Below, piece after piece: positions 7,902 through 47,391 of a stretch of DNA of 64,000 nt. Under the pieces are notes generated by a model that searched no databases, had not been told where the DNA came from, and worked only from the letters and a program-made list of their open reading frames with translations. The number at the start of each line of letters is the position of its first letter. The stretch's first letter is position 1. The stretch is from Sulfuricurvum sp. (GTDB lineage: Bacteria; Campylobacterota; Campylobacteria; Campylobacterales; Sulfurimonadaceae), in assembly GCF_028713855.1 (NCBI RefSeq), contig NZ_JAQTNN010000001.1, forward strand, positions 124,001 to 188,000, read 5' to 3'. Made by a program: the position numbers and the translations under genes.

Positions 7902-9287
7902 ATGGAAAAGATGTGGTCCGGACGTTTCGCGCAAGATGCGTCAACCCTTTTAGAAAAATTTAATGCTTCAATCATGTTTGATCAAAAACTTTATCGGGAA
8001 GATATTGAAGGCTCTGTCGCACATGCGCAAATGCTTACCCATCAGGGGATTTTAACCCAGGAAGAGCTGAGTTCAATCGAATCGGGGATGGCACAAGTCT
8101 TGAGTGAAATCGAGTCCGGTGCTTTCGAATGGAAAATCGGAGATGAAGATCTGCATATGGCGATTGAAAAACGCCTTACCGCCATTATTGGTGAAGCCGG
8201 TAAAAAACTTCATACCGCGCGTAGTCGTAATGATCAGGTAGCACTCGATTTTCGCCGTTTTGTACTTCGTAAAAACCATGAAATTGTGGGGCAGATCAAA
8301 TCGTTGATGGAAGCGATTATTGATATTGCTCGAGAGCATACTACGACGTTGTTGCCGGGAATGACCCATTTACAGCATGCTCAGCCGATTAATTTCGCGT
8401 TTCATCTGCTCGCATATGTATCGATGTTTAAACGTGATTGTGAACGTTTTGAGAGCAGTGCGGCGCGTAATAATATTTCCCCGATCGGATGTGCCGCTTT
8501 GGCAGGGACTCCGCATAATATCAACCGTGAAATGACCGCAAAAGCACTCGGCTTTGAAAGTGTCAGTGTCAACTGTCTCGATACGGTCAGTGATCGTGAC
8601 TTTGCGCTGGAAATTTTGTTCAATATTTCGACATTGATGATGCATATTTCTCGCCTTGCCGAAGAGATTATCCTTTGGTCGAGTTATGAATTCCGTTTTG
8701 TGGAACTTTCCGACGCTTATTCGACGGGCTCTTCGATTATGCCGCAAAAGAAAAACCCCGATGTCCCGGAACTTCTCCGAGGAAAAACAGGTCGAGTATT
8801 TGGAAATCTGATGGGATTATTGACCGTTATGAAAGGGTTGCCTCTCGCATACAACAAAGATACTCAAGAAGATAAAGAAGGAGTGTTTGACAGTGTAGAA
8901 ACCGCTGAAATCTCTCTTGAGATTTTGCGTGAAGCCCTTAAAACGATGACGATTAAGCCTCAAAATATGGCACGTGCTTGCAAACTCGGTCATCTTAGTG
9001 CCACTGATTTGGCCGATTATTTGGTTGAACACTGCGATGTCCCGTTTCGAGAAGCACATCATATTACCGGACGTGCCGTTGCTCGTGCAGAAGCTTTGGG
9101 AATCGATTTGAGCGATATTGAATATGCAGAACTGCATGCGATTGATAATCGAATCAAAAAAGATGTTATTGCTTACTTAGCGATTGAGCATTCGATGAAT
9201 GCCCGTACGTCACAGGGCGGAACTGCCGAAGTTCGTACGCTAGAACAAATTATTTATTTTGACCATTATCTTAAGGATGTGAAATGA
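7902..9287 (+). CDS. argH: Argininosuccinate lyase
   Basis: ArgH splits argininosuccinate into arginine and fumarate, the last step of arginine synthesis. The 461-residue length is typical. The fumarase/aspartase superfamily signature [12 protein letters not shown] is present, with the catalytic serine loop. [11 protein letters not shown] and [11 protein letters not shown] contribute active-site residues. Its stop overlaps the next start by four bases (ATGA), so osmC is coupled. A probable terminator upstream and its own promoter suggest a new transcription unit starts here. Confidence 0.97.
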
Positions 9288-9748
9288 AGATCACGGTTAG
9301 CCACCAAAGTGAAATGAAATTTGAGGCCAAAACGGAAAAAAGCAGTTTTATTATCGACTGTCCGCAAATCTCCCCAATCGAGTATTTTTTAAGTGGGATT
9401 ATTACGTGCAGTGCAACCGATGTGGTGTTGCTTCCAAAGCAACAAGGGTATGAAGTAACAAACCTTGAAGTCAGTGGTGAAGTAGTGCGTAATGAGTCTG
9501 CACCGCGTAAATTTAATGCCCTGCATCTCGAATACCATTTTGATTCCAATGCGGACGATACATTGGCCGCACGTTGGGTTATGGCGAGCTTGGAGACGTA
9601 CTGCTCAACGATTAATACGATTCGTGATACCACGGCGATCAGCTATACAATTATTCATAATGGTAATGTCATTCGGGAAAACGAAAAGATGATCAGTGGC
9701 GGAGGAAGTGCCGTAGATTTCGGCTCCCTCCAAGGGTGCAATGCGTAA
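9284..9748 (+). CDS. OsmC/YhfA-family thiol peroxidase-like protein
   Basis: A 154-residue OsmC-family protein. Members with two cysteines reduce organic hydroperoxides. Both expected cysteines are present: C42 in [14 protein letters not shown] and C107 in [11 protein letters not shown]. The spacing and the context around the second cysteine resemble the YhfA-like subgroup. It starts in a four-base overlap with argH, so it is co-transcribed. The stop lies just before a 61-bp inverted repeat shared with the convergent HIT gene. Redox detoxification is the likely role; the substrate is unknown. Confidence 0.85.
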
Positions 9749-9754
9749 TAAACT

Positions 9755-9815
9755 CCGTTCGCCCTGAGCCCTGTCGAAGGGTGAGTTCATGGTTCGACAA
9801 GCTCACCACGAACGG
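9755..9815. repeat. 61-bp REP-like inverted repeat between convergent genes
   Basis: The ends are perfect inverted copies (CCGTTCG at 9755-9761 and CGAACGG at 9809-9815). Each half is a variant of the same unit. On the plus strand it reads GTTCGCCCTGAGCCCTGTCG, with AAGGG following. The second half, read on the minus strand, is GTTCGTGGTGAGCTTGTCGA, with ACC following. I recall very similar TTCG-x-TGAGC-TTGTCGAA motifs as dispersed intergenic repeats in many proteobacterial genomes. Placed between the osmC and HIT stops, it could fold as a bidirectional terminator. No second copy was noticed in this window. Confidence 0.75.
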
Positions 9816-9829
9816 GCTTGTGTTTTAAA

Positions 9830-10186
9830 TCAAAAAAAATCCTTCGGATCAGCATCCGCAAAATGTCCCCAATGGAGTTTTGCCCCTCCGACGATATGAA
9901 AATGAAGATGCCCCACCTCTTGACCGCCGTTTTCACCAATATTGCTGATGATACGGTATCCGCTTTCCTTAATTCCCAATGTTTGTGCCACCTCTTGCAT
10001 AAACGTTGACATTCTTCCCATAACATCCCCAGGAATATCATTAAAACTTTGATAATGTGCTTTGGGGATCGCTAAAACATGGACGGGAGCTTTTGGATTG
10101 ATGTCATGAAACGCGTAAAATTCATCGTTTTCAGCGACTGTATTTGAGGGGATTTCTTTACTCGCTATTTTACAGAAAAGACACAT
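9830..10186 (-). CDS. HIT-family nucleotide hydrolase (HinT-like)
   Basis: A 118-residue histidine-triad protein that probably hydrolyses nucleoside phosphoramidates such as AMP-amine conjugates. The triad HLHFH is at 93-97 (H93, H95, H97), followed by IVGG. A zinc-site-like N-terminus MCLFCKI gives a CxxC. It is transcribed away from pheS, and this divergent hit/pheS pairing also occurs in C. jejuni as I recall. A ribosome-binding site AAAGAGG sits ahead of the ATG. Its 3' end faces the osmC gene across the inverted repeat. Confidence 0.93.
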   Translation of the reverse strand: MCLFCKIASKEIPSNTVAENDEFYAFHDINPKAPVHVLAIPKAHYQSFNDIPGDVMGRMSTFMQEVAQTLGIKESGYRIISNIGENGGQEVGHLHFHIVGGAKLHWGHFADADPKDFF

Positions 10187-10208
10187 AATAAACCTCTTTT
10201 TTTCTGCT

Positions 10209-10214
10209 ATTGTA
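10209..10214 (-). promoter_or_regulatory. Possible -10 box for the HIT gene
   Basis: On the minus strand TACAAT follows GC, about 23 bases before the start codon. No -35 box is evident. Confidence 0.35.
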
Positions 10215-10258
10215 GCACATGGTTCGTCCCTTGAAGCTATTTATAAAAGAGATTTGAC

Positions 10259-10264
10259 TACAAT
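10259..10264 (+). promoter_or_regulatory. Possible -10 box for the pheS-rpsA operon
   Basis: TACAAT lies about 80 bases before the pheS TTG start. The leader between them contains a widely spaced eight-base inverted repeat (TGAAAGCT at 10276-10283 and AGCTTTCA at 10313-10320). No phenylalanine-rich leader peptide or T-box is visible. Confidence 0.3.
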
Positions 10265-10345
10265 ATCTTCTAAATTGAAAGCTGTTTCAGAAATAATGAT
10301 TACGTATTTAAAAGCTTTCAGAAAACCATCAATGGAGACTCTATT

Positions 10346-11338
10346 TTGCAAGAGTGGTATGACGCTATAAAATCGGCTGACTCGATTGATAAAATCGAAG
10401 AGATCCGAATCGCTATTTTCGGAAAAAAAGGGATAATGAACGCAGAGTTCGCCCGTATGAAAGATATTCCTGATGCAGAAAAAGGGACATTTGCTAAAGA
10501 ATTGAACATCCATAAAGAGGGATTGAACGCTTTGTTGCTCGATCGCAAACTCTTTTTGGCGATGGAACATTTGCAAGCATCTATGAAAGCGGAAGCGATT
10601 GATGTAAGCCTTTATTCTCCGATCAGTGAGCGTGGATCTTTGCACCCTGTAATGGAAACGATGGATCGAATTGTCGAATATTTCGTTGCTATGAATTTCT
10701 CGGTACAAACGGGACCGATGGTAGAAGATGATTTTCACAATTTTGAGGCGTTAAATCTTCCTAAATACCATCCTGCGCGTGATATGCAGGATACTTTTTA
10801 TTTTAAAGACTCGATGCTGTTGCGTACCCATACCTCTCCGGTACAAATTCGTACAATGCTAAGTACCAAACCTCCGATTCGGATGATTGCTCCGGGTGCC
10901 GTTTTCCGTCGTGATTACGATATTACCCATACTCCGATGTTCCACCAGGTAGAGGGATTGGTCGTTGAAGAAGCAGGAAAAGTGTCGTTTGCTAATCTTA
11001 AATTTATCCTTGAAGATTTCCTAAAAACAATGTTTGGAGAAGTTGAAGTTCGTTTTCGTCCTAGCTTTTTCCCGTTTACGGAGCCTTCCGCCGAAGTTGA
11101 TATCAGTTGTATTTTCTGCGGTGGAGAAGGGTGCCGAGTATGCTCTAAAACCGGATGGCTTGAAGTCCTCGGATGCGGTATTGTCGATCCGAATGTCTTT
11201 AAAGCGGTCGGGTATGAGAATGTTAGCGGATATGCGTTTGGTTTAGGGGTTGAGCGGTTTGCAATGCTGATTCACCGAATCGGCGATTTACGCTCTTTAT
11301 TTGAGGGAGATACGAGATTATTGGAGCAGTTTAGATGA
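10346..11338 (+). CDS. pheS: Phenylalanyl-tRNA synthetase alpha subunit
   Basis: PheS is the catalytic subunit of the alpha2-beta2 enzyme that charges tRNA(Phe). At 330 residues it matches the Campylobacter homologue in length. Motifs include [14 protein letters not shown], the class II motif 2 region [14 protein letters not shown], and [10 protein letters not shown] for motif 3. A cysteine-rich loop ([15 protein letters not shown]) is also present in relatives. The start is TTG at 10346 with GGAG nine bases upstream, because no ATG in frame matches the conserved N-terminus. The stop overlaps pheT by four bases. Confidence 0.96.
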
Positions 11339-13665
11339 TCGTTACAAAAAATTGGTTAAACGAATGGATCGATCTCTCAGGAATCAGCACAGAAACATTG
11401 CTGAAAACGTTCAATTCTATCGGTCTTGAAGTTGATCGACATGAAATAATTATGGTGCCAAACGGTGTCGTTATCGGTTATGTAGAACAATGTGAAAAAC
11501 ATCCTGATGCGGACAAGTTAAATGTATGTCAAGTCAATGTAGGCAATGAAATACGACAAATTGTTTGCGGGGCATCGAATGTCCGTCAAGGAATTCATAT
11601 TGCATTGGCTACAGTAGGTGCAGAGCTTCCCGGCGGTCTTAAGATCAAGGAAGCAAAACTTCGCGGTGTTGAATCGCTTGGAATGATCTGCTCGGCGAAA
11701 GAGATTGGATTGCCTTCTTTGGGCGAGGGGATTATGATCCTTGATACGAGCATAGGAGAGATGGTCCTCGGAAAAAATTTGAATGAATATCCTTCATTCA
11801 ATGATGATTTGATCGAGATCGAACTTACAGCAAATCGCGGTGACTGTTTGAGTATTCACGGTATCGCACGTGACTTGTGTGCAGCATTTTCCCGACCACT
11901 TAGAGAAGTGAATCAGAAAGAAAAACAAGATGGTCGATTGGGTATCGGACGTATTTTGCAGCTTCATCATAATGAAACGTTTAATACGGATCTTTTATTT
12001 GGGGCAGTCGATGTAAAAGAGCTGCAAGTTCCTTTTGCGATTGCTTTGCGTTTGGCACTTATCGAAGGGGTATACAATACCGCCGTCGATGCATTACTCC
12101 TGTATTCGACACAAAGTACGGGTGTCATTTTACGAGCGTATCCGTTTGAAAAATTTGGTGATTCGGAAACAAAAGGGATTATTACCCTCGACAATGACGA
12201 TAACGGTTTTGCTGCATTGTACGGGAAAGAGAAAGTTTCCGTGATCGGTGTATCGCAAGAAAAAGAAGCTCATTTCAGTGCTGAGGGCGGATTAGCGATT
12301 ATCGAAGCGAGTTATATCGCGCCGGATATTATTGCCAAAAAAATGGGTGAGAAAAAGGTTCCAAGCTGTCCCCATTATTATCGATCTTCACGCGGTAGTG
12401 AGCCAAAAATCGAGATGGGTATCCGATATGTGGCTGAATTATTTGAAAAATATTCACCTTCACAGGTATACGGCGGGAATATAGAGCTTCTTTCTTCGTA
12501 TGAACCTCGTATTATTAGCATGGGTGAAGAAGAGTTTGAAGCGTTTATCGGTTTAAAGATCGATAAGACAACGATTACCCAGATTTTCAAAAATTTAGGG
12601 ATGGATATCGGTAAACCGAAGGGATCGACTTTTGCGATTTCCGTTCCAAAGTTTCGTCATGATATTGTAAATAAACAAGACATAATCGAAGAGATCGTCC
12701 GTATTATCGGTATTGATAATATTCCGTCCAAGCCTCTTGTATTTGCAGAAGCAAATCAAATGGGTAATGATTTGACTGAGTATAAAAAAACACGCATGTA
12801 TCGCCATCGTTCTGCTCAAAGCGGATTTTACGAGTCTGTTCATTTTGTCTTTAATGAACGCCTTCAGGTAGAAAAATTCGGTTTTGTATGTACTGAGCCG
12901 TCCAAAGAGCTTTTAAACCCTATTACTGCAACGTTTGATACCCTTCGTCCTACGTTATTGGTAGGTCTTTTGAATTCAGCTGCGGCTAATGTTAAAGTGA
13001 ACCAAAAAAAGATTGCTCTGTTTGAGACAGGTATGGTATTTGATGCAGAACGTCATGAATCCAAGCGTCTATCGTTTATTGTTTCAGGAGCGATGGAAAA
13101 TGAAAAAATCTCCAATGCGGGGAAACCTTCCATTATCGATTTTGCTGCATTTACCAAACTGATTTCGGACGTATGCGGATCATTTGAATTGATTTCACAT
13201 ACTCCGAGCCACTCTTTGGCTCATCCGTATGTATGTGCAAAAGTGATAATCAATGGTCAGGAAGCCGGTGAACTTTTCCGTCTCCATCCACAAGTAGAAG
13301 AGGAATTTGACCTTGCACAAACGTTTATGTGCGAACTCAAAACTGATTGTCTTCCCTACGGATTGATCGAAGCACAACCGTATTCAAAATATCAGGCATC
13401 TTTTAGAGATTTAAGTATTCTTATTCCCAAAGATGTAACGTACCAAACCATCAAAGCGGTTATTGAAAAAAATATTTCCGTACAAGTTCGACGCTTTTAC
13501 CCTGTTGATCGCTATGTTTCGGAAAGTTTGGGAGATCACATGAGTTTGACGTTGCGCTTTGTATTGCAATCAGATGAAAAAACGTTGGAAGAAGAAGATA
13601 TTACTGCCGCTGTAGAAGGGATATTGAATGCTCTACGCGAAGAGCTTGGAGTAAATTTGCGATGA
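11335..13665 (+). CDS. pheT: Phenylalanyl-tRNA synthetase beta subunit
   Basis: PheT is the large subunit of phenylalanyl-tRNA synthetase. It binds tRNA(Phe) and edits misacylated Tyr-tRNA(Phe). The 776 residues contain the N-terminal EMAP/OB tRNA-binding domain (about 40-150), the B3/B4 editing domain (about 210-370), the B5 domain (about 395-465), a class II-like core, and the FDX-ACB anticodon-binding domain at the end (about 685-776). It overlaps pheS and aroA by four bases each, so it lies in a tightly coupled operon. Confidence 0.96.
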
Positions 13666-27928: not shown

Positions 27929-30859
27929 ATGAGTACAGAAGAGATCGGGGCACTGCTAAGCGACAAATCAAAGCTCCTTTCCGAAATCTATTTCGAACTT
28001 CAATCGGTATGTGAAGCCAAATACGGTCCTGATACTCTTGTTATTATCGAAGTAGGCTCGTTTTTCGAGGTTTATGAGGTCAACAACGAAGCAATGAAAA
28101 TCGGTAAGGCCAAAGAAGTTGCCGAATTTCTCAATATCCAGCTCACCCGTAAAAATAAAACAATACTTGAAAACTCCATCCAAAACCCTCTCCTCGCCGG
28201 TGTTCCTACCGTTTCCATCGAGCGGTATCTCAGCCGTTTGGTGCAGTCGAAAAAATACACGATCGTCCTTGTCCGTCAGCAGGGTGAAGTTCCCCATATC
28301 CGCCGCTACATCTCCAACATTATCTCTCCGGGGACGAATTTCGACTATATTGCCGAAGCGAGCGAGAACTATATTGCCTCGCTGTTGATCGATCAAAATA
28401 ACGGTGTCTATTCCGTAGGGTATTCGGCGATTGATGTGGGAACAGGGAAAACGCTCATCAACGAGATCCACGGAACTCGCGAAGACAAAACCTATGCTCT
28501 GGATGAAGTGTTTACGCTACTCCAAAGCTACCAAACCTCCGAAGTGGTGGTGACGTTTTGTGCCGGAGATATCGATCGGGATGAAGTAACCCGTTATCTG
28601 GAGATCAAAAATCACCATCGAACGTCGATGAATGAGAAGCGTCTGCGGATTGATTACCAAAACGAACTGTTCGAGCGGATTTATCAGATACGCTCACTCC
28701 TTAGCCCCATCGAGTACCTCGATCTGGAGCGTTATCCCTACGCTTCGGAATCGCTTTGTATCCTTATCAACGTCATTATCGATCACGATGCGGGGATTAT
28801 TGAAAAGATGAACCGTCCTACCTTTTTGGGGACGAATCGCTATATGTATCTGGGAAATAATGCGGCAGAGCAGTTGGGGATCATTTCACGCGATCATGAT
28901 GAAATGACACTCCTCAAACTCATCGATAAAACCTCCACGGCAATGGGAAAACGGCTACTGCGTGAGCGGCTTCTCAATCCTATCTGTGATGTTAAACTCC
29001 TCGAAGAGCGGTACGATTTAATCGATAAGATGAGTGATCACATTGCACCGTTTGAGACGAAACTCAAAGAAGTGTATGATCTGGAACGGATTTTACGCCG
29101 TCTGAAACTCGGAAAGCTCCACCCGTTTGAGCTTGCCTATTTTTACGCATCGCTTAGTGCGGCGGAGAGTTTATTTGAGGATGCCGCACGTTTGGGTGTT
29201 GCTTACGATAAAGCGAGTGCGCAGGAGTGTGCTCATTGTGCCTCTGAGCTTCGGCGAGTATTTAATATCGAAGCGTGCGCTAAATTTCGGCGTGACCAGA
29301 TTGATGAGAACCTATTCAAGGAGGGGATCGATCCCTCTATCGATGCTTTGGAACAACTTCAAAGCAACAACCTTTCGAAATTGAATACGATTATCGGACA
29401 TATTGATACGTTTTTTGAATCCGGGGGATCGTATGCCTCTATCGGATGGTTAGAGAGTGAGGGGTACCATCTTTTAATGACCCGTAACCGTTATGTGAGT
29501 GTCGAAGAGGCACTCCATAACAGCTTCTTTACGCTGGACAATCAGCATTACTTTTTTCGCGATTTTCAGGTTCGTAAACTTAAAACAGCGGTGAAACTCT
29601 CTTCGACCCTTTTGGATGAACTCTCTATCGAAAATGCGGGAGCCAAGTCACGTATGATCGCTCAGGTAAAAGAGCGCTACCGTGAACATCTCGAAGAGAT
29701 TGAACGACGCTTTTCCCATGCGATCGAACATCTGATCTCGTTTCTCGCTGTCGTGGATGTGAGTTTAAGCGGCGCGAAGTGTGCAAAGCAATACCGCTAT
29801 ATCCGTCCGTCCATCGTCCCCTCCCCAAAAGCGTTTATCGAGACGGTGGGATTGCGCCATCCCCTCATCGAATCGCGAGAAGAGAACGGGATATTTATCC
29901 CCAATGATCTTTTTTTAGGTTCACTCGATCAGCACACCTATGAAGAACACCCGACGATTGAAAACGGCGAGGATGTCAAAGGGGTGCTTTTGTACGGCAT
30001 CAACTCCAGCGGGAAATCTTCCTTGATGAAGAGTATCGGACTCTCGGTCGTGATGGCGCAGGGGGGATTTTTCGTTCCGTGCGCCATGATGCGCTTCTCT
30101 CCCGTCGATAAGCTCCTTACCCGTATCGTTTCCAAAGACAACCTTTACAAAGGGCTTTCGACGTTTGCCGTAGAGATGCTTGAGCTGCGCAATATCTTTA
30201 ACCGTGCAACCGAAAATACCCTTATTCTAGGTGATGAGATCAGCCACGGGACGGAGACCGAATCGGCTCTCGCCATCGTCGCGAGTGCGATTCTCAAGCT
30301 TCGAGAGATCGGGAGTATGTTTATCTTTGCTACCCATCTGCATCAGCTCTCATCCCTCGAAGAGATTAAAAAAGCGCGTGAGATCGTGCTGCTTCATTTG
30401 GGTGTTTATTACGATGAGGCGAGCGATAAGCTGGTGTATGACCGTAAGCTCAAAAGCGGAAGCGGCTCAACACTGTACGGATTGGAATTTGCCAAATCGC
30501 TCCACATGGATGAGACTTTTCTGAAAAAGGCGTATGAGATCCGAGGACGGATCACCGATAAAACCCATGAAGCTTCGATGCTGAAGCGGGAGAAAAAGAG
30601 CCGTTATAACAACAAGCTCTTTTTGACCAAATGTGCATTGTGTGATGAAGCGGTTGATGAGGTGCACCACATCGTCCCTCAGGCGAACGCGGATGATGGC
30701 GGTTCTATCGGGCACTATGGGATGAATCACCGCTACAATCTTATTCCTTTGTGTGCTAAGCACCATCGCCTTGTCCATGAGGGAAAAATTTCCATCCATG
30801 GCTTTGTAATGGGTGAGGACGGTTTACGGCTCAGTTATACTGAGAGTAGTGAAAAATAA
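27929..30859 (+). CDS. MutS7-type mismatch-repair ATPase fused to an HNH nuclease
   Basis: A 976-residue MutS homologue. A mismatch-recognition-like N-terminus (about 20-130) has an F-x-E motif in GSFFEVYE (F45, E47). A connector and lever/core region covers about 140-600. The ABC ATPase has Walker [10 protein letters not shown] near 690 and Walker [13 protein letters not shown] near 765. From about 905 to the end there is an HNH endonuclease with a probable zinc site: CALC, then DEVHHIVPQ, a conserved N in RYNLIPL, and CAKHHRLVH. This MutS-HNH layout defines the MutS7 subgroup known from octocoral mitochondria, giant viruses and Epsilonproteobacteria. Fusing recognition and nicking could replace MutL and MutH, which Campylobacterota lack. 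That role is inference. The gene shows no frameshift and has the base composition of the core genome. Confidence 0.92.
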
Positions 30860-30891: not shown

Positions 30892-31368
30892 ATGACAAAC
30901 GTTCAATCTGTTTTACACAAACGGTTTGAGAAGGCAGAAAAGCATTACGAAGCATTCCGTGATTATTGTCATTTGATCGAAAAACTCTCCTCCGTGAAAA
31001 ATATTTTTACTATCGATGTTTTTATTCAGATGCCCCCAGAAGAAAAAGCGATTCTCGACGCCTATCTCAAACGATTTGCGTCATTGCAGGATTTTTTAGG
31101 GGCGAAAATATTTCCTCTTTTGATCGAAATTAGCGGTATGGGAACGGTCAAAATGTCCGAAGTCCTGTTTATGATGGAAAAAGAGGGAATTATCGACAGT
31201 TTTGATAATTGGATGGAGTTGCGCGAAATCCGAAACGAACTCGAACATGATTATCCTGATGAGCTCCAAGAGGCACTGGATGATCTGAAATTTTGCGTCG
31301 ATCATTTCGGGCGGTTGGAGAGCTATTATCTAAATTCCAAAGCGTTTGCGGAGAGGTTTACTTCATGA
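30892..31368 (+). CDS. hepT: HepT-like HEPN-domain toxin
   Basis: A 158-residue, mostly helical HEPN protein of the HepT (DUF86) type. These are RNases that act as toxins in type VII toxin-antitoxin systems. The catalytic R-x4-H-x-Y motif is intact: R114, H119 and Y121 in REIRNELEHDYP. In the characterised Shewanella system the antitoxin nucleotidyltransferase blocks the toxin by adding AMPs to this tyrosine. Its stop overlaps the next start by four bases (ATGA), and the toxin-first order matches known hepT-mntA pairs. It sits directly behind the MutS-HNH gene. Identity is well supported by motif plus partner; activity is inferred. Confidence 0.85.
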   Translation: MTNVQSVLHKRFEKAEKHYEAFRDYCHLIEKLSSVKNIFTIDVFIQMPPEEKAILDAYLKRFASLQDFLGAKIFPLLIEISGMGTVKMSEVLFMMEKEGIIDSFDNWMELREIRNELEHDYPDELQEALDDLKFCVDHFGRLESYYLNSKAFAERFTS

Positions 31369-31658
31369 GACTCCCTGAAACACTCAAATCTTCTATACTC
31401 AAAGCGATAGAGGAGTCTTTCGGGAATGTCGAAATCTATCTTTTTGGCAGTCGTACCGATGATACGAAGCGTGGCGGTGATATCGATATCGCAATTCGAA
31501 CGGATATGACCCGTGAACACTTCCGCAAACACAAGATAGCGTTTGTATCGTTGCTGATGCGGATGGGGTTTGATCTGAAAATTGATTTGGTTCAGTACCA
31601 CGATTCGATGGATGCACTGCTCAAAAGCGAGATTTGCTCCAATGGAATCAAACTCTAA
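31365..31658 (+). CDS. mntA: MNT-type nucleotidyltransferase antitoxin
   Basis: A 97-residue minimal nucleotidyltransferase, the likely antitoxin partner of the HepT protein. The start at 31365 overlaps the hepT stop by four bases and has a GGAGAGG ribosome-binding site; the frame is open upstream but inside hepT. The active-site motif is FGSRTDDTKRGGDIDIAI, that is GS, nine residues, then DxD. The spacing is one shorter than the commonly quoted ten. A third acidic residue is likely D in KIDLVQY. The protein probably AMPylates the toxin's tyrosine. The gene ends ten bases before the convergent Cache-CheW gene. Confidence 0.85.
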   Translation: MRLPETLKSSILKAIEESFGNVEIYLFGSRTDDTKRGGDIDIAIRTDMTREHFRKHKIAFVSLLMRMGFDLKIDLVQYHDSMDALLKSEICSNGIKL

Positions 31659-31668
31659 TTCCTCTCTA

Positions 31669-34248
31669 TTAGGCCATTACTTTATGCATCGGGTGTGAAT
31701 AGGGCTGGATAAGCTGCAAATAAATTTTTGGAATGTCGAGGATTGAAATCATCTCATTTCCGAAATCCTCGGCACGATCAGGAATAATGACCGCTTTGGT
31801 CAGTGAATTCTCATTTTTCAAAATATTGCTGTAGTGACTGATAGAGCGGATCGGAATTTCAGGGCTGCTGTAGATGGCATCCACAGCCAATCCCAGATAA
31901 ACGACTTGTCTTTCTATTACGGCTTTTACCAGAATGATGGTATCACGCTCTTTGTCGTACTTTTTCTCCATCCCAAGCAATTTAGCGAGCGATATAACAC
32001 TCACCATCCGTTTCTCATAGCTGATGACGCCCAGATTGTATTCGCTGGCATGGAGTATTGAGGTAAGCTCTTGATGAACCAGAGAACAGACAACATTTTT
32101 TGATTCGATTGCAAAGAGCGATCCTCCCACAAAAAAGGTTGATATTTCGGAAGTCTCTTCGGTTCCGTTGGCTTTAGGATACGTATAGACACGTTGCGTA
32201 GGAGCTTCACTTTCAATGGCTTGAATCTCACCGATAGGCCGGTAGAGGAGTGCGATAATGTCATTATCGTATCCGTCGCTTTGTTTGTATTCTCGGTATC
32301 CGTTTGAGCAGGTTGCGCCGAGTGTGTAATAGGTTCCGTTATAAGGAAGGATCTGTGCATCGCTTTGTCCCGGGGTGAGTTCTAAGATCGATACCGGAAG
32401 ATGGAGTATCTCTCCTACTTTGATGGTTGCGGTTGTGGTAGAAATGACACGGCCGCTTCGATCGATAAAGAGGGCAAACATCCCCTCAGGAATTACATGA
32501 TTGTCATCTTTGGGGAGGGTATCGTGCAACATCGCTTCGAACTGAGATTCGGCATCAAAGACGATGCCTATTCCGCCAACATTTTCCTCATTAAAATTGC
32601 GGATACAGGCATTATAGATATAAGTTGAACGATTGGAATAATAGGGACTCGATTCGAATGCTGATACGACATATTCTTGGGTGGTTTTAAGTTCTAGCGT
32701 TTCCAGTGCCCATGAATATCCTACTTTTTTCCCGATTACAGCATTGTCGCCCGGATTGGAGACAGCTATAATTGTCCCTTCACGATCGTAAATGAACATT
32801 GCGCTGTAGACGGTATAGAGACCATTGATATAACCTAAAATGGTATTCATTTTTTCACGATTTTCTTCACTTACATTGATATTCGATAAACATTCGCGGA
32901 AGGTTGTTGTCAGCGCCCACCATCGGCAATCATTGGCTCTCTCATACAGGTTCCGATCCATGATATCAATCGCGAGGGAGGATTGGAACTTTAAATCTTC
33001 AAGATACTGGATCAGCATCGCCGTGTTGAGATTGGCGACAGTATGATCAAAAACTCGTTTCGTCTCTTCACCTGTTTTCGATATTTCTGAGAGGAGCGCT
33101 TTGGTAAAGGGGCTTTCATGACCGACTGAGTTGGCTATTTGGACATTTCCGTTCCATACGGTAATATCGAGTTCGCTTTGAATTTTTTTTGCTTTATCCA
33201 AGATATCTTGAAGCTCTTGCGGATAGTAGGTTTTTGCATTGGCAACCCTATCAAACAAATCATTTTTTAGAAATGAGGATCGTGAAGAGGAACGAAATGC
33301 TAAGTGAAGGGGAACCATCGCATGCCCGATCCATCCTGAACCGTTGTATCCTTGATATCCGGTTGTTTTTACCGCTTTGTAGAGGTATTCGAAACCGGTA
33401 TAATAGGTTTGATGATCCTCATTATTACGCGGTGGAAGATTTGAGCCGATCGGAACATGATGGGCAGAGGATGAGGCAATAACCTCTCCGTATGGACTGA
33501 GAAGTTCGAGAGCGATATAGGGATTATCGCGGGTAAGTTTGTGAAAAATACTTTTTAGCTCATTTTCAAATCGGAAAATCAGACACAATACTCCCAACGG
33601 TTCATCATTCTTAGGATTACAGACACGGTAGGAATAAATAAGTGAGGGTTTATGGTGGGTGAGATCACTTGCACGATAGGTTTCGACATAGCCTTGATAG
33701 GTTCGCAGTGATTCTTGCAGTAGTGGATCTTTTGAAACGGTGATCGGATTGCTATGATCGAGCTGTACGAGCACTTTGCCTTTTGTATCGAGGAGAATGA
33801 TATTTTCATAGACACTGTATTTTGAGACGTATTCGGCAAAGCGTTCCGTTAGGGCTTCTTTTTTCTTTATTTTAATTTCGCGTTTTTCGTCTGAAGCAGA
33901 CATATCGGTTGAGTGTAAAAAGAGAAGGTAATCGCGGATGTCATCATCGGTAGCGAGAAATCCGATATCGGCAGTACGTTCAAAAAGGTTTCGGATCAGA
34001 ATATCTATCGCTGTTTGAGCTTTGGACTCGAGTTCATTGAGACTTTTATTGAATGTCTCTTCTATCAGACGTTTAAGTGGTTCGTCGAGTAAGTCCTCGA
34101 ACGCTTTACGCGTTTCACTTGTGTCCATTCCGATATTGGACATAGAACCAAGGAGCGTGAGTAAATCCCATTTTCCTGAGAGATTATTCATATTTTTTTC
34201 AAAATTTTGAACATCGGACATATAACTGATGAGATGACTGCGTTGCAT
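31669..34248 (-). CDS. Soluble double-Cache protein with C-terminal CheW domain
   Basis: An 859-residue protein starting at the ATG at 34248, which has GGAG eight bases upstream. A longer frame uses a TTG without a site. It has no membrane segment or signal peptide. Two Cache-like sensor modules each begin with a related helix, AIDILIRNLFERTADIGFLA near 79 and AIDIMDRNLYERANDCRWWA near 434, so the sensor part is duplicated. The C-terminus (about 700-850) is a CheW-like coupling domain (FFVGGSLFAIES, GVISYEKRMVSVISLAKLLG, GLAVDAIYSSPEI). There is no receptor signalling domain, kinase or cyclase. It probably binds the CheA/receptor array and reports a cytoplasmic ligand. That is inference, since Cache domains normally lie outside the membrane. 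Confidence 0.75.
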   Translation of the reverse strand: MQRSHLISYMSDVQNFEKNMNNLSGKWDLLTLLGSMSNIGMDTSETRKAFEDLLDEPLKRLIEETFNKSLNELESKAQTAIDILIRNLFERTADIGFLATDDDIRDYLLFLHSTDMSASDEKREIKIKKKEALTERFAEYVSKYSVYENIILLDTKGKVLVQLDHSNPITVSKDPLLQESLRTYQGYVETYRASDLTHHKPSLIYSYRVCNPKNDEPLGVLCLIFRFENELKSIFHKLTRDNPYIALELLSPYGEVIASSSAHHVPIGSNLPPRNNEDHQTYYTGFEYLYKAVKTTGYQGYNGSGWIGHAMVPLHLAFRSSSRSSFLKNDLFDRVANAKTYYPQELQDILDKAKKIQSELDITVWNGNVQIANSVGHESPFTKALLSEISKTGEETKRVFDHTVANLNTAMLIQYLEDLKFQSSLAIDIMDRNLYERANDCRWWALTTTFRECLSNINVSEENREKMNTILGYINGLYTVYSAMFIYDREGTIIAVSNPGDNAVIGKKVGYSWALETLELKTTQEYVVSAFESSPYYSNRSTYIYNACIRNFNEENVGGIGIVFDAESQFEAMLHDTLPKDDNHVIPEGMFALFIDRSGRVISTTTATIKVGEILHLPVSILELTPGQSDAQILPYNGTYYTLGATCSNGYREYKQSDGYDNDIIALLYRPIGEIQAIESEAPTQRVYTYPKANGTEETSEISTFFVGGSLFAIESKNVVCSLVHQELTSILHASEYNLGVISYEKRMVSVISLAKLLGMEKKYDKERDTIILVKAVIERQVVYLGLAVDAIYSSPEIPIRSISHYSNILKNENSLTKAVIIPDRAEDFGNEMISILDIPKIYLQLIQPYSHPMHKVMA

Positions 34249-34291
34249 AAGTGCTCCTGTACAAAAATGATATGGATTGATTTGTGATGAC

Positions 34292-34297
34292 AGTATA
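34292..34297 (-). promoter_or_regulatory. Possible -10 box for the Cache-CheW gene
   Basis: On the minus strand TATACT lies about 44 bases before the ATG, following a T-rich region (CTATTTTTTTTCATTGCTCT). The gap between selO and this gene otherwise holds only short hairpins. Confidence 0.4.
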
Positions 34298-37732: not shown

Positions 37733-39442
37733 TTATGGCTCCATTATCGATACCGCTTTGCGTTCATGGAAGTTGAAATGACGTTCCAAATCAGAATTGT
37801 CGATTAGAACAGGCACAACCAAGAGCGACGCGATGACGGCTGCTATTGTACCAAAAATCAGTGATACTCCAAGCCCTCCGAATACGGCGTCACTTGCCAA
37901 AAGAGTGGAGGCGAGGATAATTGCCGCAGCGGTGAGAAAAATCGGTTTTGCACGGGTAGCGGTCGCATAGGCAATTGCCTCTTTTTTGTGCATCCCTTTG
38001 TCCAGCATCAACGATTTGGTAAAGTCGATTAGTAGAAGTGAGTTGCGCGAACTGATTCCTATCAAGGCGATAAATCCGATCAATGATGTTGCGGTCAGGA
38101 AGAACGTATCGGCAGTAAAGATATTCATAATGAAATGGCCGAAAATAACCCCGATGATGGAAAGGAAACTTCCCAACAATACAATACCGCTGATGACAAA
38201 ACTTTTGTAGTAAATAACCATGAGTAAGAAAATAAGGATCAGTGCCGCGATAAAGGCACCTCCGAGATCGACGAAGGTGTCGAGTGTCACTTTCATCTCG
38301 CCGTCCCATTTGAGATCATAAATTTCTTTGGTCTTTTTATCAACGAGTTGCAGGTTGAACAATCCCGTTTTGGTAATTTCGTATTCATCGTTGAAGGTAT
38401 CGAGAATAACGTTGCGTGCCGCCATTAATGGATAAACCTGTGAAACCATATCGGTTTCGGCTACAACATTGCTCATTTGATGAAGATCTTTAGTCATAAT
38501 CATCGGATTGGATTTGACCGCTATGATATCGACGATCTCAGTGATGGGAACCATCATCCCCATTTGGTTGAGTAGTTTGAGGGAAGAGAGTTTCATCTCA
38601 ATCGCGGTTTTATCTTTGGAAGCGAACTTTTTCCCTTCAGGGGTCAATGTTAAGAAAATTGGGATTTGATCAGTTGCGCTTTGGGAGTTTTTAACGGCAA
38701 TCCCCATCCCCTCAAACGCAAGGTACAAAATATCGTTGACGTGTTTAACATCAAGACCTGATCTTGAAATTTTATCGGTGTTAACACGAACTTCGAATTT
38801 ATCATAAATCTCATCTTGCATGATATCGATATCGACAAGACCGTCTGTTTTACGGAAAACTCCCTCGACACGTTCGCTCAAATGACGAATCCCTTCGGCT
38901 TTATTTCCGTAGACTTCGGCAACAATCGCCGCCATGGTAGGAGGACCGGCAGGGGGTTCAATAAATTTGATATTGGTTTGCGCGTATAAGCTCTCACATT
39001 GTTTGAGGATAACAGGACGAAGACGTTGCACCATCATATAAGACGGTTCGTCACGGTTATGCTTTTTGGTCAGATTAATGACCACTTCGGCGACGTTTTC
39101 GTTGTTTTTAAAATGGCTTCCTTTGATCAGCCCGGCAAAATCAAGGGGTGAACCGCTCCCTAAAAAGACCTCAGTATCCAATGCCTCTTTTTCATGCTGT
39201 AAAATTCCGACGACACATTCGCTCACTTGACGGGTTTGTTCGATGGAACTTCCATTCGCAAGATCAATGTAGACGCTGTAGGTATCGTTGTTTTTTCCCG
39301 GAAGCATTTTAGCCAAAACGAGTTTGGTCGGAATGAGGGCTACCGATAAAATAAAGGCAATCAGTGTTCCCCATAACACCATTCTTTTTTTGGAGGGTGT
39401 GTTGAGAATCAGGAGTAAATAGTTTTCAAATTTTTTGTACAT
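37733..39442 (-). CDS. RND efflux permease, C-terminal half as a separate gene
   Basis: A 569-residue protein equal to the second half of an AcrB-type RND permease. One membrane helix lies near the N-terminus (about 21-48, TM7), then comes a large periplasmic porter/docking region (about 50-400), then five helices (TM8-12, about 410-550). TM10 carries LIGISSRNSLLLIDFTKS, where R replaces the lysine of AcrB, as in related RND subfamilies. Its ATG overlaps the stop of the preceding half by one base (TGATG), with GGAG 12 bases upstream, so the halves are translationally coupled. Together they make 1099 residues, the length of a normal pump. The substrate is unknown. Confidence 0.88.
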   Translation of the reverse strand: MYKKFENYLLLILNTPSKKRMVLWGTLIAFILSVALIPTKLVLAKMLPGKNNDTYSVYIDLANGSSIEQTRQVSECVVGILQHEKEALDTEVFLGSGSPLDFAGLIKGSHFKNNENVAEVVINLTKKHNRDEPSYMMVQRLRPVILKQCESLYAQTNIKFIEPPAGPPTMAAIVAEVYGNKAEGIRHLSERVEGVFRKTDGLVDIDIMQDEIYDKFEVRVNTDKISRSGLDVKHVNDILYLAFEGMGIAVKNSQSATDQIPIFLTLTPEGKKFASKDKTAIEMKLSSLKLLNQMGMMVPITEIVDIIAVKSNPMIMTKDLHQMSNVVAETDMVSQVYPLMAARNVILDTFNDEYEITKTGLFNLQLVDKKTKEIYDLKWDGEMKVTLDTFVDLGGAFIAALILIFLLMVIYYKSFVISGIVLLGSFLSIIGVIFGHFIMNIFTADTFFLTATSLIGFIALIGISSRNSLLLIDFTKSLMLDKGMHKKEAIAYATATRAKPIFLTAAAIILASTLLASDAVFGGLGVSLIFGTIAAVIASLLVVPVLIDNSDLERHFNFHERKAVSIMEP

Positions 39443-41034
39443 CAGTGAGAATCTCCGTGGTGTTCGGGTTTTTTAAGCAACCGTATCGCCAAATACGGGG
39501 TGAAGATATAAGCGACAAACAGGGATGCCACAAGTGCAACGGGGACGTTGGCAGGGATCGGTTTCATAAACTGTCCCATCATTTGACCGACAAATGCCAT
39601 CGGAACCATCGTGAGAATAATGGCCAAGGTCGCGATATTGGTCGGTGCGCCGATCTCATCGGTTGCTTCGATCATTAGCTCATCGGCATCTCGATCGGCT
39701 GCCCCGGGTGCGTGGAAGTGACGGTGAATATTTTCGATAACGATAATCGCCGCATCCACTAGCAGTCCCAGACTGAGAAGGAAGGCAAAAAGGGTGATAC
39801 GATTAATGGTTTGCCCCGTTAGATAAGCGATAAAGAGGGTGATTGCCAAAATCGCCGGAACGGTGAAGGTAACGATCAGCGATTCGCGCCAGCCCAAAAC
39901 AAAAACAAGCAAGATAGCGATGATAACGATAGAGAGGAGCAAGTGGAATACCAGCTCATTGACCGCTTCGTTTGCCCGTTCTCCGTCATTACGAGTGATA
40001 ACGTAGCTGATTCCCTCGCTTTTCATCTGTTCTTTGTACTTTTCAAGTTCTGTTTTTACCGCTTCGGCAATGATAACGGCATTCGTCCCTTGGAGTTTGG
40101 ATACCGTAAGGGTGATTTGATCTTTCAGCGGTGAGAATTTTCCATCTTCACCCTTGACACTCACAAGCGCTGATTTGAAGTTTTGGATATCTTGTCCTGC
40201 GCTGATAGTTGCAACGTCACGAAGGTAGATCGCTGATCCGCCGTATTGGGCGACGATGATGTTTCCGACGTCTTCGACACTGTCGATGGCATTACGAACC
40301 CCGATCATCACGATTTGGTTATCTTGTGTTTTTCCTTTAATCTCAGGAACGTTATAGGCCAATGATTGGGTAGCCATCACGATTTGTCCAAGAGAGAGGT
40401 TGTATCCCGCTAGGCGGTTTATATCCACAAGGACATTATATTGATGTTTTTTAGCACCCTTGATATCGGTAACAGCGACGTTAGGAAGGCCGTTGATATG
40501 ATGTTGAATCTCTTTGACATGGTCGTAGAGCAGGGTAGGATCCATTTTCGGATTATTGGAATAAAACGCGACCGAAACGATCGGGATATCGACATCGATA
40601 TCGAGGGGTTTGATAATCGGCTGCATAGCACCTTTGGGGAGGATACTCATGTTTTGCATGATTTTGTCGTATATTTTGAGGTTGGAATCCTCTTTGGCCT
40701 CACCGATAAAAAAGGCGGCATTGATGACGGCAACATTGTCCATCGCCATGCCGTGGATATGTTCAATCCCTTTGACCTCTTTTAGTTTTCGCTCCAAGGG
40801 TTTGACGATAACGTTTTCAACTTCGTTAGCGGTTGCTCCGGGGAGGGCAATAATGACGGTAGAGCCGCTGACAACCATTTGAGGATTCTCTTCACGGGGC
40901 ATAAGCATAAGTGCCATGTAACCGATGAGAAGGAGAAAAATTCCCAAGATTGGAGTGAGGGGATTGCGTAAAAACCCTTTTGCAAGTTTTCCGGCAGAAT
41001 CTTTAGGCTGATAGGCTTGTGGTGTATGCATCAT
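39442..41034 (-). CDS. RND efflux permease, N-terminal half as a separate gene
   Basis: A 530-residue protein equal to the first half of an RND permease. TM1 lies near 30-47, the first periplasmic loop at about 50-375, and TM2-6 at about 380-520. It ends in the cytoplasmic linker (RLLKKPEHHGDSH), exactly where the second half begins. TM4 contains LLVDAAIIVIENI. Only the first of the two proton-relay aspartates of AcrB (D407/D408) is kept; the second is alanine. GGAGTT precedes the ATG pair. It lies five bases after the adaptor gene in a tolC-adaptor-RND-RND-fapA operon. Confidence 0.9.
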   Translation of the reverse strand: MMHTPQAYQPKDSAGKLAKGFLRNPLTPILGIFLLLIGYMALMLMPREENPQMVVSGSTVIIALPGATANEVENVIVKPLERKLKEVKGIEHIHGMAMDNVAVINAAFFIGEAKEDSNLKIYDKIMQNMSILPKGAMQPIIKPLDIDVDIPIVSVAFYSNNPKMDPTLLYDHVKEIQHHINGLPNVAVTDIKGAKKHQYNVLVDINRLAGYNLSLGQIVMATQSLAYNVPEIKGKTQDNQIVMIGVRNAIDSVEDVGNIIVAQYGGSAIYLRDVATISAGQDIQNFKSALVSVKGEDGKFSPLKDQITLTVSKLQGTNAVIIAEAVKTELEKYKEQMKSEGISYVITRNDGERANEAVNELVFHLLLSIVIIAILLVFVLGWRESLIVTFTVPAILAITLFIAYLTGQTINRITLFAFLLSLGLLVDAAIIVIENIHRHFHAPGAADRDADELMIEATDEIGAPTNIATLAIILTMVPMAFVGQMMGQFMKPIPANVPVALVASLFVAYIFTPYLAIRLLKKPEHHGDSH

Positions 41035-45376: not shown

Positions 45377-45403
45377 TATTCTGAATGCTAGTGATTCAGA
45401 ATA
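45377..45403. terminator. Possible bidirectional terminator between convergent genes
   Basis: A ten-base-pair stem (TATTCTGAAT / ATTCAGAATA) with a seven-base loop lies between the Lcl gene and the FIST receptor gene. It covers the receptor's last codons. Neither side has a strong T-run. Confidence 0.4.
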
Positions 45404-47391
45404 TCCAGTGTTTTTTCATAGGTTTGTAATTTTGATAACTCATCATTGAGATTTTCGGTTAGCAACGACTGAGAACGCAATTCTTGTGAAACAACTTGGC
45501 TCTCATGGGATAAACTTTCCATTTCATGAGATAGTTTTGAACTTTTAGAGGCCATATCGATAAGTCCGCTGCTGACACCACCCATGGTATCACTGATACT
45601 TTCTACTGCTTGGATAATAGTGCTGACGGATGCGTTCGTTTCAGAGAGACTTTTCTGGGTTCGTTCAGCCAGTTTTCGTACTTCATCGGCAACAACGGCA
45701 AATCCGCGGCCGTGTTCACCTGCACGTGCTGCTTCTATTGCGGCGTTGAGGGCGAGGAGATTGGTTTGATCGGCAATATCAGAGATAACACTAAGAACGG
45801 TACGTATTTCACGTACGTTACCGGTTAAACTTTCTACTTCTGAGGAGAGATTACTGTTATCTGCACTGCTTTTTTCCATATTGTTTGCGAAAATGGTGAA
45901 TTGATCTTTGACATTTGTGAGTTGTGTCCCGATCGTATCAATCGAATCAACGGCATTGCGGATGGAGTTACCGATGGTTTGTATCACGGGCATACTCTCT
46001 TTCATTTGAGTGAGCATTGCTTTATTGATATTATCGATCATGTTTTGTCGATTGATTTTACGTAGAAGGAAATAGCTTTTAAATCCGGCATATTTTTGGA
46101 CAAAACTATCAATATACTCATCATTAAACGATCTATTCTCAACATGGTAAAAGAAAATTGCCGTTAGCGTTTGGTTGATATTAACCCCCAAAAGTTCACC
46201 AAATGTTGAGAATCCGGCTACGGGGATATCGTTAAAAGCACGGAGATTATTGAGCTCTTTGGTATTGAATAAACGTCGTAAAATACAATCGTTGAAGATG
46301 GCTCCGATTGCTTTGGGCTTGTTGCGGCTAAAATCAGAATAATTCTCAGATGTTGTTTGGACAAAATCCGTTTTTTCAAGGAGAATCAGTTCTTCTCCGG
46401 CCTCAATATCACAATAAAAATGGATGGCATTGGAAGCTATGTCTATCGAAGCAATGGAACGAACATATATCTCACCGTCGATTTCGATACCGAAGGTGAA
46501 GTTTGCCAGTTTGACATCCAATTGTTCTGGTGAACACTTAAAATGCGCTGTCAGTGCATCAACGGCACTGATTTGCGTATTGGTTTTTAAATCCAAAAAT
46601 GCATTGACAATTCGTTTGATAGGATTGGCATCCAATACCGTAAATTTTGTCATTGATTTTCGGAAGTTTTGACTTTTGAAAATTCCGAATCGATAGGCAG
46701 GATTAAATTTGATAAAAGTAATGAGTGCATGGTGACGTAATGCACGTGTTCCATCAAATAAGTAGGTGTTTTGAAAATCGAGTTTTCCTCCTGCACTCCC
46801 TCCTACGAGAAGACAGGGAAAGCTGCCGACATTGTAGACCGCTTCCATAAAGAAACTCTCGCTGGCAGATAGACCGTCGATGAGTGTATATCCGAGCGTA
46901 TCTTCATGATTCATTTTAAACGGGACACGAACACGTCGTAGCTCATCAGAGATTGCCGCAACTCTGTCTGCTGCATTTTTTGAGCTGCTTCCGATGTCTT
47001 CACTTTTGAGAGGGATCGATGCTACATAAACATTACTAATCATCTCTTTTGCAAACAGCATCAAAACGATATTGTCACCGGTTCCGGCATCGGTTTGAGA
47101 ATAGAGGTGAGAGAGGGGTGTTGATTTGTCAAAACTGCATAACTCACCGGCGCTAGTGGAAAGGATGAGGGTTGTATCACTGGGTAGTGTTTGTTTGAGT
47201 CGTGAAGATACGGTGGTAAAATCGAGGGAAGGAGAGACAAATCCGATAACCACTTTAGGGATAAGAGGGAGGCGTTCAAGTTTACCGCTGCTAATTTCCG
47301 ATTCTCGTAATGTTATAGACATCATAGCATTGTCAATCTGATTCACAATTTTTTCTTGCGTATCAGCAGTTTTAAAAAGACCAAACATCAT
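45388..47391 (-). CDS. Soluble methyl-accepting chemotaxis protein with FIST sensor domain
   Basis: A 667-residue chemoreceptor without membrane segments. The N-terminal FIST_N/FIST_C sensor region covers about 35-430 (family-like stretches [32 protein letters not shown] and [11 protein letters not shown] near its end). FIST domains are thought to bind amino acids or other small molecules. The signalling domain (about 440-665) has the conserved tip [20 protein letters not shown] and [20 protein letters not shown] ribosome-binding site AAAGGA favours the second of two adjacent ATGs (47388). No CheR/CheB docking pentapeptide is seen at the C-terminus. It lies 22 bases after the next receptor gene and is probably co-transcribed. 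Confidence 0.92.

Follow-up and report, generated by a model that had tools for sequence, protein, structure and literature searches.

Can a Cache sensor act from within the cell, joined to CheW instead of to a receptor? The question is raised by an 859-codon open reading frame in a 64,000-nucleotide stretch of Sulfuricurvum DNA, referred to here as the window. An initial annotation had described its product as a cytosolic Cache-Cache-CheW protein with no receptor signalling domain, which could be a coupling protein that feeds cytoplasmic information into the CheA array. The gene and its parts are as follows.

34292..34297, minus strand: TATACT, a -10-like box that is conserved, some 45 nt 5' of the ATG, within a supposed TTG extension (orthologue comparison)
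34253..34258, minus strand: ribosome-binding site AGGAGC, 5' of the ATG (sequence and orthologue comparison)
31669..34248, minus strand: coding sequence, 859 amino acids, hairpin-dCache-hairpin-dCache-CheW (open reading frame list, Pfam and AlphaFold2 model; ATG conserved in orthologues)
33952..34218, minus strand: helical hairpin 1, residues 11-99, formed by helix 11-35 and helix 44-99, the second of which continues into the long helix of the Cache module (AlphaFold2 model)
33286..33951, minus strand: dCache module 1, residues 100-321 (AlphaFold2 model; VIA-align to the KinD sensor domain, 4jgp_B)
32917..33219, minus strand: helical hairpin 2, residues 344-444, with helices 344-373 and 380-444 (AlphaFold2 model)
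32914..32973, minus strand: family signature AIDIMDRNLYERANDCRWWA, residues 426-445, common to the single-unit relatives from Pseudomonadota (sequence comparison)
32227..32916, minus strand: dCache module 2, residues 445-674 (Pfam dCache_1; VIA-align to DctB, 3by9_B)
31699..32160, minus strand: CheW domain, residues 697-850 (Pfam CheW; separate structure model)
32086..32088, minus strand: codon of Cys721, at the position of E. coli CheW Glu38 (alignment)
32014..32016, minus strand: codon of Glu745, at the position of E. coli CheW Arg62 (alignment)

As annotated, the protein ends in CheW: Pfam CheW (PF01584) matched residues 704-842 with an E-value of 2.3e-16 (60.1 bits, against a curated cut-off of 23.5). 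dCache_1 (PF02743) matched two stretches, the better of which spans residues 471-608 (E=3.7e-14; 53.3 bits, cut-off 45), and Pfam gave no match to MCPsignal (PF00015) in the 859-residue protein, in agreement with the proposed absence of a receptor signalling domain. Two helices had been put forward as signs of internal duplication. Both were present, AIDILIRNLFER at residue 80 and AIDIMDRNLYER at residue 426, and the homology extends to whole repeats of about 300 residues, which aligned profile to profile (hhalign) with a probability of 99.55 (E=2e-23, 299 columns).

A full-length AlphaFold2 model (29-row alignment; mean pLDDT 74.9, pTM 0.66) was weak at residues 794-859, and the CheW domain was therefore refolded alone from the last 190 residues (pLDDT 81). 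The Cache cores comprised residues 147-313 of module 1 and 481-674 of module 2 in the full-length model. By VIA-align, module 1 (model residues 62-321) matched KinD (4jgp_B; Z 13.9, 202 of 206 residues aligned) and module 2 (model residues 410-674) matched DctB (3by9_B; Z 18.5, rmsd 2.8, 226 residues aligned), with other dCache receptors and kinases matching the modelled protein at Z 13-18. The sensor region is predicted to comprise four PAS-like subdomains, which make up two full dCache modules, each following a helical hairpin. The label Cache-Cache was right as to the folds, but understated them, each repeat being a full double Cache. No amino-acid-binding motif of a known type was seen. 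The separate CheW model superposed on TtCheW (2qdl_B) at Z 17.6 (rmsd 2.5, 140 of 146 residues aligned), against a Z of about 4 for unrelated rows; as modelled, this domain is a complete two-subdomain CheW fold.

Cache domains had been called almost always extracytoplasmic, which is true in the main but not without exception: 78% are confidently predicted to be extracellular, and two small families are intracellular (PMC4822843). The 859-residue protein departs from the extracytoplasmic placement that is usual, not strict, for dCache_1. Neither a transmembrane helix nor a signal peptide was found in it by a 19-residue Kyte-Doolittle scan and comparison of start sites. The highest mean, 1.71 at residue 771, falls in the CheW strands, and the first 60 residues reach 0.59 at most, whereas the four Sulfuricurvum MCPs with membrane segments that served as the comparison set gave 2.1-3.15. 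The annotated lack of a membrane helix was thus borne out, and the protein is predicted to be soluble and cytosolic. Elsewhere in the window (45388-47391), a cytosolic FIST chemoreceptor seems to be encoded: an MCP whose sensor domains are FIST_N and FIST_C and in which no membrane helix is evident.

A start at an upstream TTG, followed by export of a periplasmic Cache protein, was one of the outcomes that the initial annotation had named as contradicting its proposal. The TTG-started frame has 888 codons and a mildly hydrophobic start; however, hydrophobicity in the extended N-terminus reaches just 1.30, and export would put CheW outside the cell. Orthologues share the ATG (GTG in one), preceded by an AGGA-type ribosome-binding site, whereas the reading frame 5' of it is not conserved. 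A TATACT-type box is also common to the orthologues and, like the ribosome-binding site, falls within the putative TTG extension; the Sulfuricurvum gene has its own conserved promoter-like box. From the orthologue comparison and the hydrophobicity values, we treated export from the TTG as refuted, and give it next to no credence.

Sulfuricurvum orthologues share 74-92% identity along their whole length, the CheW domain being no exception, and occur in most genomes of the genus that were tested. The search for homologues in other Campylobacterota that the annotation had suggested placed the Cache-Cache family in 77 of 397 genomes, many with frames of about 860 amino acids, and found fused forms beyond Sulfuricurvum. 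Such long frames ended in CheW in all members read of families f1, f9 (presumably Arcobacteraceae) and f19 (presumably Sulfurospirillaceae), and CheW was present in every one of the 34 fused proteins compared. Frames of 640-700 amino acids, in f14 (which we take to be Helicobacteraceae), f15 and others, are CheW-less; CheW-less homologues of about 640-670 residues are found in what are probably Helicobacter/Wolinella-type genomes. We assume that Sulfurospirillum barnesii and Wolinella succinogenes are among the bearers of the family. In a tree of the Cache-Cache part alone, all 34 fused proteins formed one clade (support 100/100), with a single change in 100% of bootstrap trees. Because the fused forms make one clade, the CheW fusion probably arose once; under another root, there would be a single loss instead.

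Among 41 relatives, ordinary CheW-family proteins occur in each genome that has a protein of the 859-residue type, and no protein of this type occurs in the four genomes without any CheW-family match. One bearer (G014) has, as its other CheW-domain proteins, those of a cheV-cheA-cheW cluster and one more protein of CheV length. Another (G153), which we take to be Arcobacter nitrofigilis, has the fused protein and just one ordinary protein each of CheW, CheA and CheV length. The genus Arcobacter is without the F3 class that is retained in other parts of the phylum (PMC9321776), and the fused protein is probably present there; judging from this co-occurrence, the fusion would seem to suit arrays of more than one class.

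No che genes adjoin the fused gene; in Sulfuricurvum loci it comes after a split RND pump and a FapA_N protein, and in most cases after SelO as well. Chemotaxis genes are scattered in Campylobacterota. The pump, of AcrB type, is encoded at window positions 37733-41034 by two overlapping open reading frames (530 and 569 amino acids), each corresponding to half of ACR_tran, and the split is conserved in other Sulfuricurvum genomes. The window also contains a MutS protein whose C-terminal domain is an HNH_2 endonuclease (27929-30859) and a possible HEPN/MNT-like pair (30892-31658), in which a 158-residue protein without a Pfam match adjoins a Polbeta nucleotidyltransferase; those orthologous loci that were read showed no such pair at the corresponding place.

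The fused CheW domain is altered at a position on which coupling depends in E. coli. In E. coli CheW, a salt bridge holds the two binding sites in alignment; without it, the R62A variant still binds receptors and CheA with its usual affinity, yet the cells are impaired in chemotaxis (PMC3828127). In the Sulfuricurvum protein, Glu745 and Cys721 stand in place of the conserved Arg62-Glu38 pair linking the two sites. With positions equated by alignment, the arginine, whose near-absolute conservation is documented for CheW of class F7, was absent from all 34 fused domains (K, E, D, N, M or Y instead) and present in 26 of 26 ordinary CheW, CheV and CheA domains drawn from nine genomes, that of the window and eight others. 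The Glu38 equivalent was kept in 14 of the fused domains and lost in 20; in the group to which the window's protein belongs, most have Cys there. That a whole clade lacks Arg62 argues against plain coupling and for docking with altered coupling.

The window's own genome also encodes a soluble, CheW-less double-dCache paralogue (L041, 8274-10169). Its frame has a start-to-stop overlap with that of an MCP with CZB, and the MCP in turn overlaps a PAS protein (the row spanning 8274-12059). The same order of PAS protein, CZB MCP and CheW-less Cache protein was found at L047 (6553-10374), and in some other genomes the CheW-less protein stands alone. The row resembles a three-part split receptor. Its gene order hints that the Cache protein may act as a separate sensor for a receptor and that the fused form reached the array by a different path. 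A probable Wolinella genome has a 192-residue MCP fragment that lies directly 5' of the CheW-less Cache protein and adjoins an open reading frame resembling a transposase (L105, 5342-5920 and 4111-5301).

Outside the phylum, a search that covered plasmids found soluble proteins of about 340-345 residues in nine Pseudomonadota plasmid records. Each is a single unit, an MCP signalling tip followed by a dCache domain with the signature RNLYER..D.RWWA. The tip matched PF00015 at 1.7e-15 and 9.7e-17 in the two proteins scanned, and each repeat of the 859-residue protein aligned with the single-unit relatives by hhalign at probabilities of 99.57-99.78. Two plasmid proteins of about 345 residues (L112, 2168-3208; L113, 2267-3292), with a minimal N-terminal MCP tip and a dCache domain, look like very short cytosolic chemoreceptors.

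The claim that the protein has no receptor domain, correct as to Pfam MCPsignal, must be qualified in that these relatives carry a genuine MCP tip at the place of the hairpin. Because the unit homologous to each repeat has a real tip in the relatives, the hairpins could be degenerate receptor tips. The protein would then derive from a mini-receptor, its hairpins still touching CheA or CheW and its CheW domain a later acquisition. The shared signature, unit alignments that put the hairpin turns on the MCP tip, and an anchored global alignment of the full set, which scored above 40 of 40 column shuffles, speak for this descent. By eye, too, the alignment of hairpin and tip looked good; however, isolated hairpins compared profile to profile with MCP tips gave probabilities below 10% and, save for a marginal difference, did not exceed the controls, whether shuffled or reversed. 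With anchoring, too, reversed hairpins scored nearly as high and subsets were mixed, and the residues of the MCP tip are not kept. We regard descent from a mini-receptor as possible but on the doubtful side; it is compatible with the explanation of function that we prefer.

That explanation, to which we give an even chance, is that the protein is a cytosolic sensor that docks onto the chemosensory array and modulates coupling rather than replacing CheW. The CheW domain would bind CheA-P5 and/or receptor tips, which would place both dCache modules at the array, and a cytoplasmic small molecule would bind a dCache module and alter the effect of the docked protein on kinase control. Since Arg62, the link between the receptor and kinase sites, is lost, the inserted domain would most likely modulate or damp coupling locally, and not substitute for CheW as an activating coupler. 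That the effect is a brake is our guess, with about one chance in three of being right. The architecture, the folds, the soluble form, the conservation, the co-occurrence with CheW, the loss of Arg62 and the precedent of CheWS, described below, all support the docking sensor. Against it, the domain, having lost Arg62, could have ceased to act in arrays at all, the fused gene is not linked to chemotaxis genes, and the search for a known amino-acid-binding motif was negative.

If the fused domain instead replaced CheW in the array and actively relayed the Cache signal to CheA, the protein would be the true coupler that had been suggested. What stands of that suggestion is a soluble Cache-CheW protein with a complete CheW fold, conserved alongside chemosensory genes and preceded by CheWS. 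However, the loss of the Arg62 equivalent in all 34 fused domains and of its Glu38 partner in 20 of them, together with an R62A protein that binds while chemotaxis fails (PMC3828127), make true coupling distinctly improbable. Degradation of the interface, the missing che linkage and the persistence of CheW-less paralogues would also suit a protein-binding module that works off arrays, for example by holding CheA, CheV or a receptor in the cytosol or by serving another partner; but the fold is well kept, the domain is conserved in Sulfuricurvum and the presence of the protein tracks chemosensory systems, and we consider such a role rather unlikely. The docking sensor remains our preferred reading. 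It might even represent a second type of cytosolic sensor embedded in the array, independent in design, in which a receptor-derived hairpin-dCache pair is joined to a CheW domain that binds without coupling and a ligand switches kinase control off or on at the occupied sites, in F3 and non-F3 arrays alike; as a whole, this is an unlikely conjecture.

The family would bring dCache modules into the cytosol, a rare place for them, and is a candidate for a component still missing from the picture of chemotaxis in Campylobacterota. Its CheW domains, which lack the coupling arginine, also form a natural set in which the split between binding and coupling in E. coli R62A becomes testable in evolution. 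Identity with CheO of C. jejuni was not supported, CheO being reported to have no known sensory domain (PMC9665402).

Both modules share the dCache fold of DctB, PctA, Tlp3 and TlpA, whose sensors are extracytoplasmic and carried on membrane helices, whereas those here are soluble and duplicated. The soluble plasmid proteins (e.g. WP_060148510.1) share the hairpin-dCache unit and its signature, but have one unit, a real MCPsignal tip and no CheW, compared with two units plus CheW here. The CheW-less paralogue of the window's genome is encoded next to a PAS protein and an MCP in an operon-like arrangement, as is usual for split receptors such as the energy-taxis pair CetA/CetB; the sensor domains differ. 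From CheW and CheV, whose CheW fold it shares, the protein differs in lacking the Arg62 equivalent and a receiver domain and in being fused to a sensor. One study counts 30 undescribed CheW architectures, 12 of them with input domains (PMC10653840); full-text literature searches found no cytoplasmic Cache-CheW protein, although those 30 may include one. The closest parallel is CheWS of Treponema denticola, described in 2023 as the first CheW-fused sensor to be characterised, which is anchored in the array (PMC10653840). In both proteins, CheW is covalently joined to a cytosolic sensor without a receptor signalling domain; the sensor of CheWS is C-terminal, CheR-like and SAM-binding, whereas here it is N-terminal and made of paired dCache modules. 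CheW-fused sensors are thus already known in outline, and the paired-dCache family of free-living Campylobacterota would be their second type.
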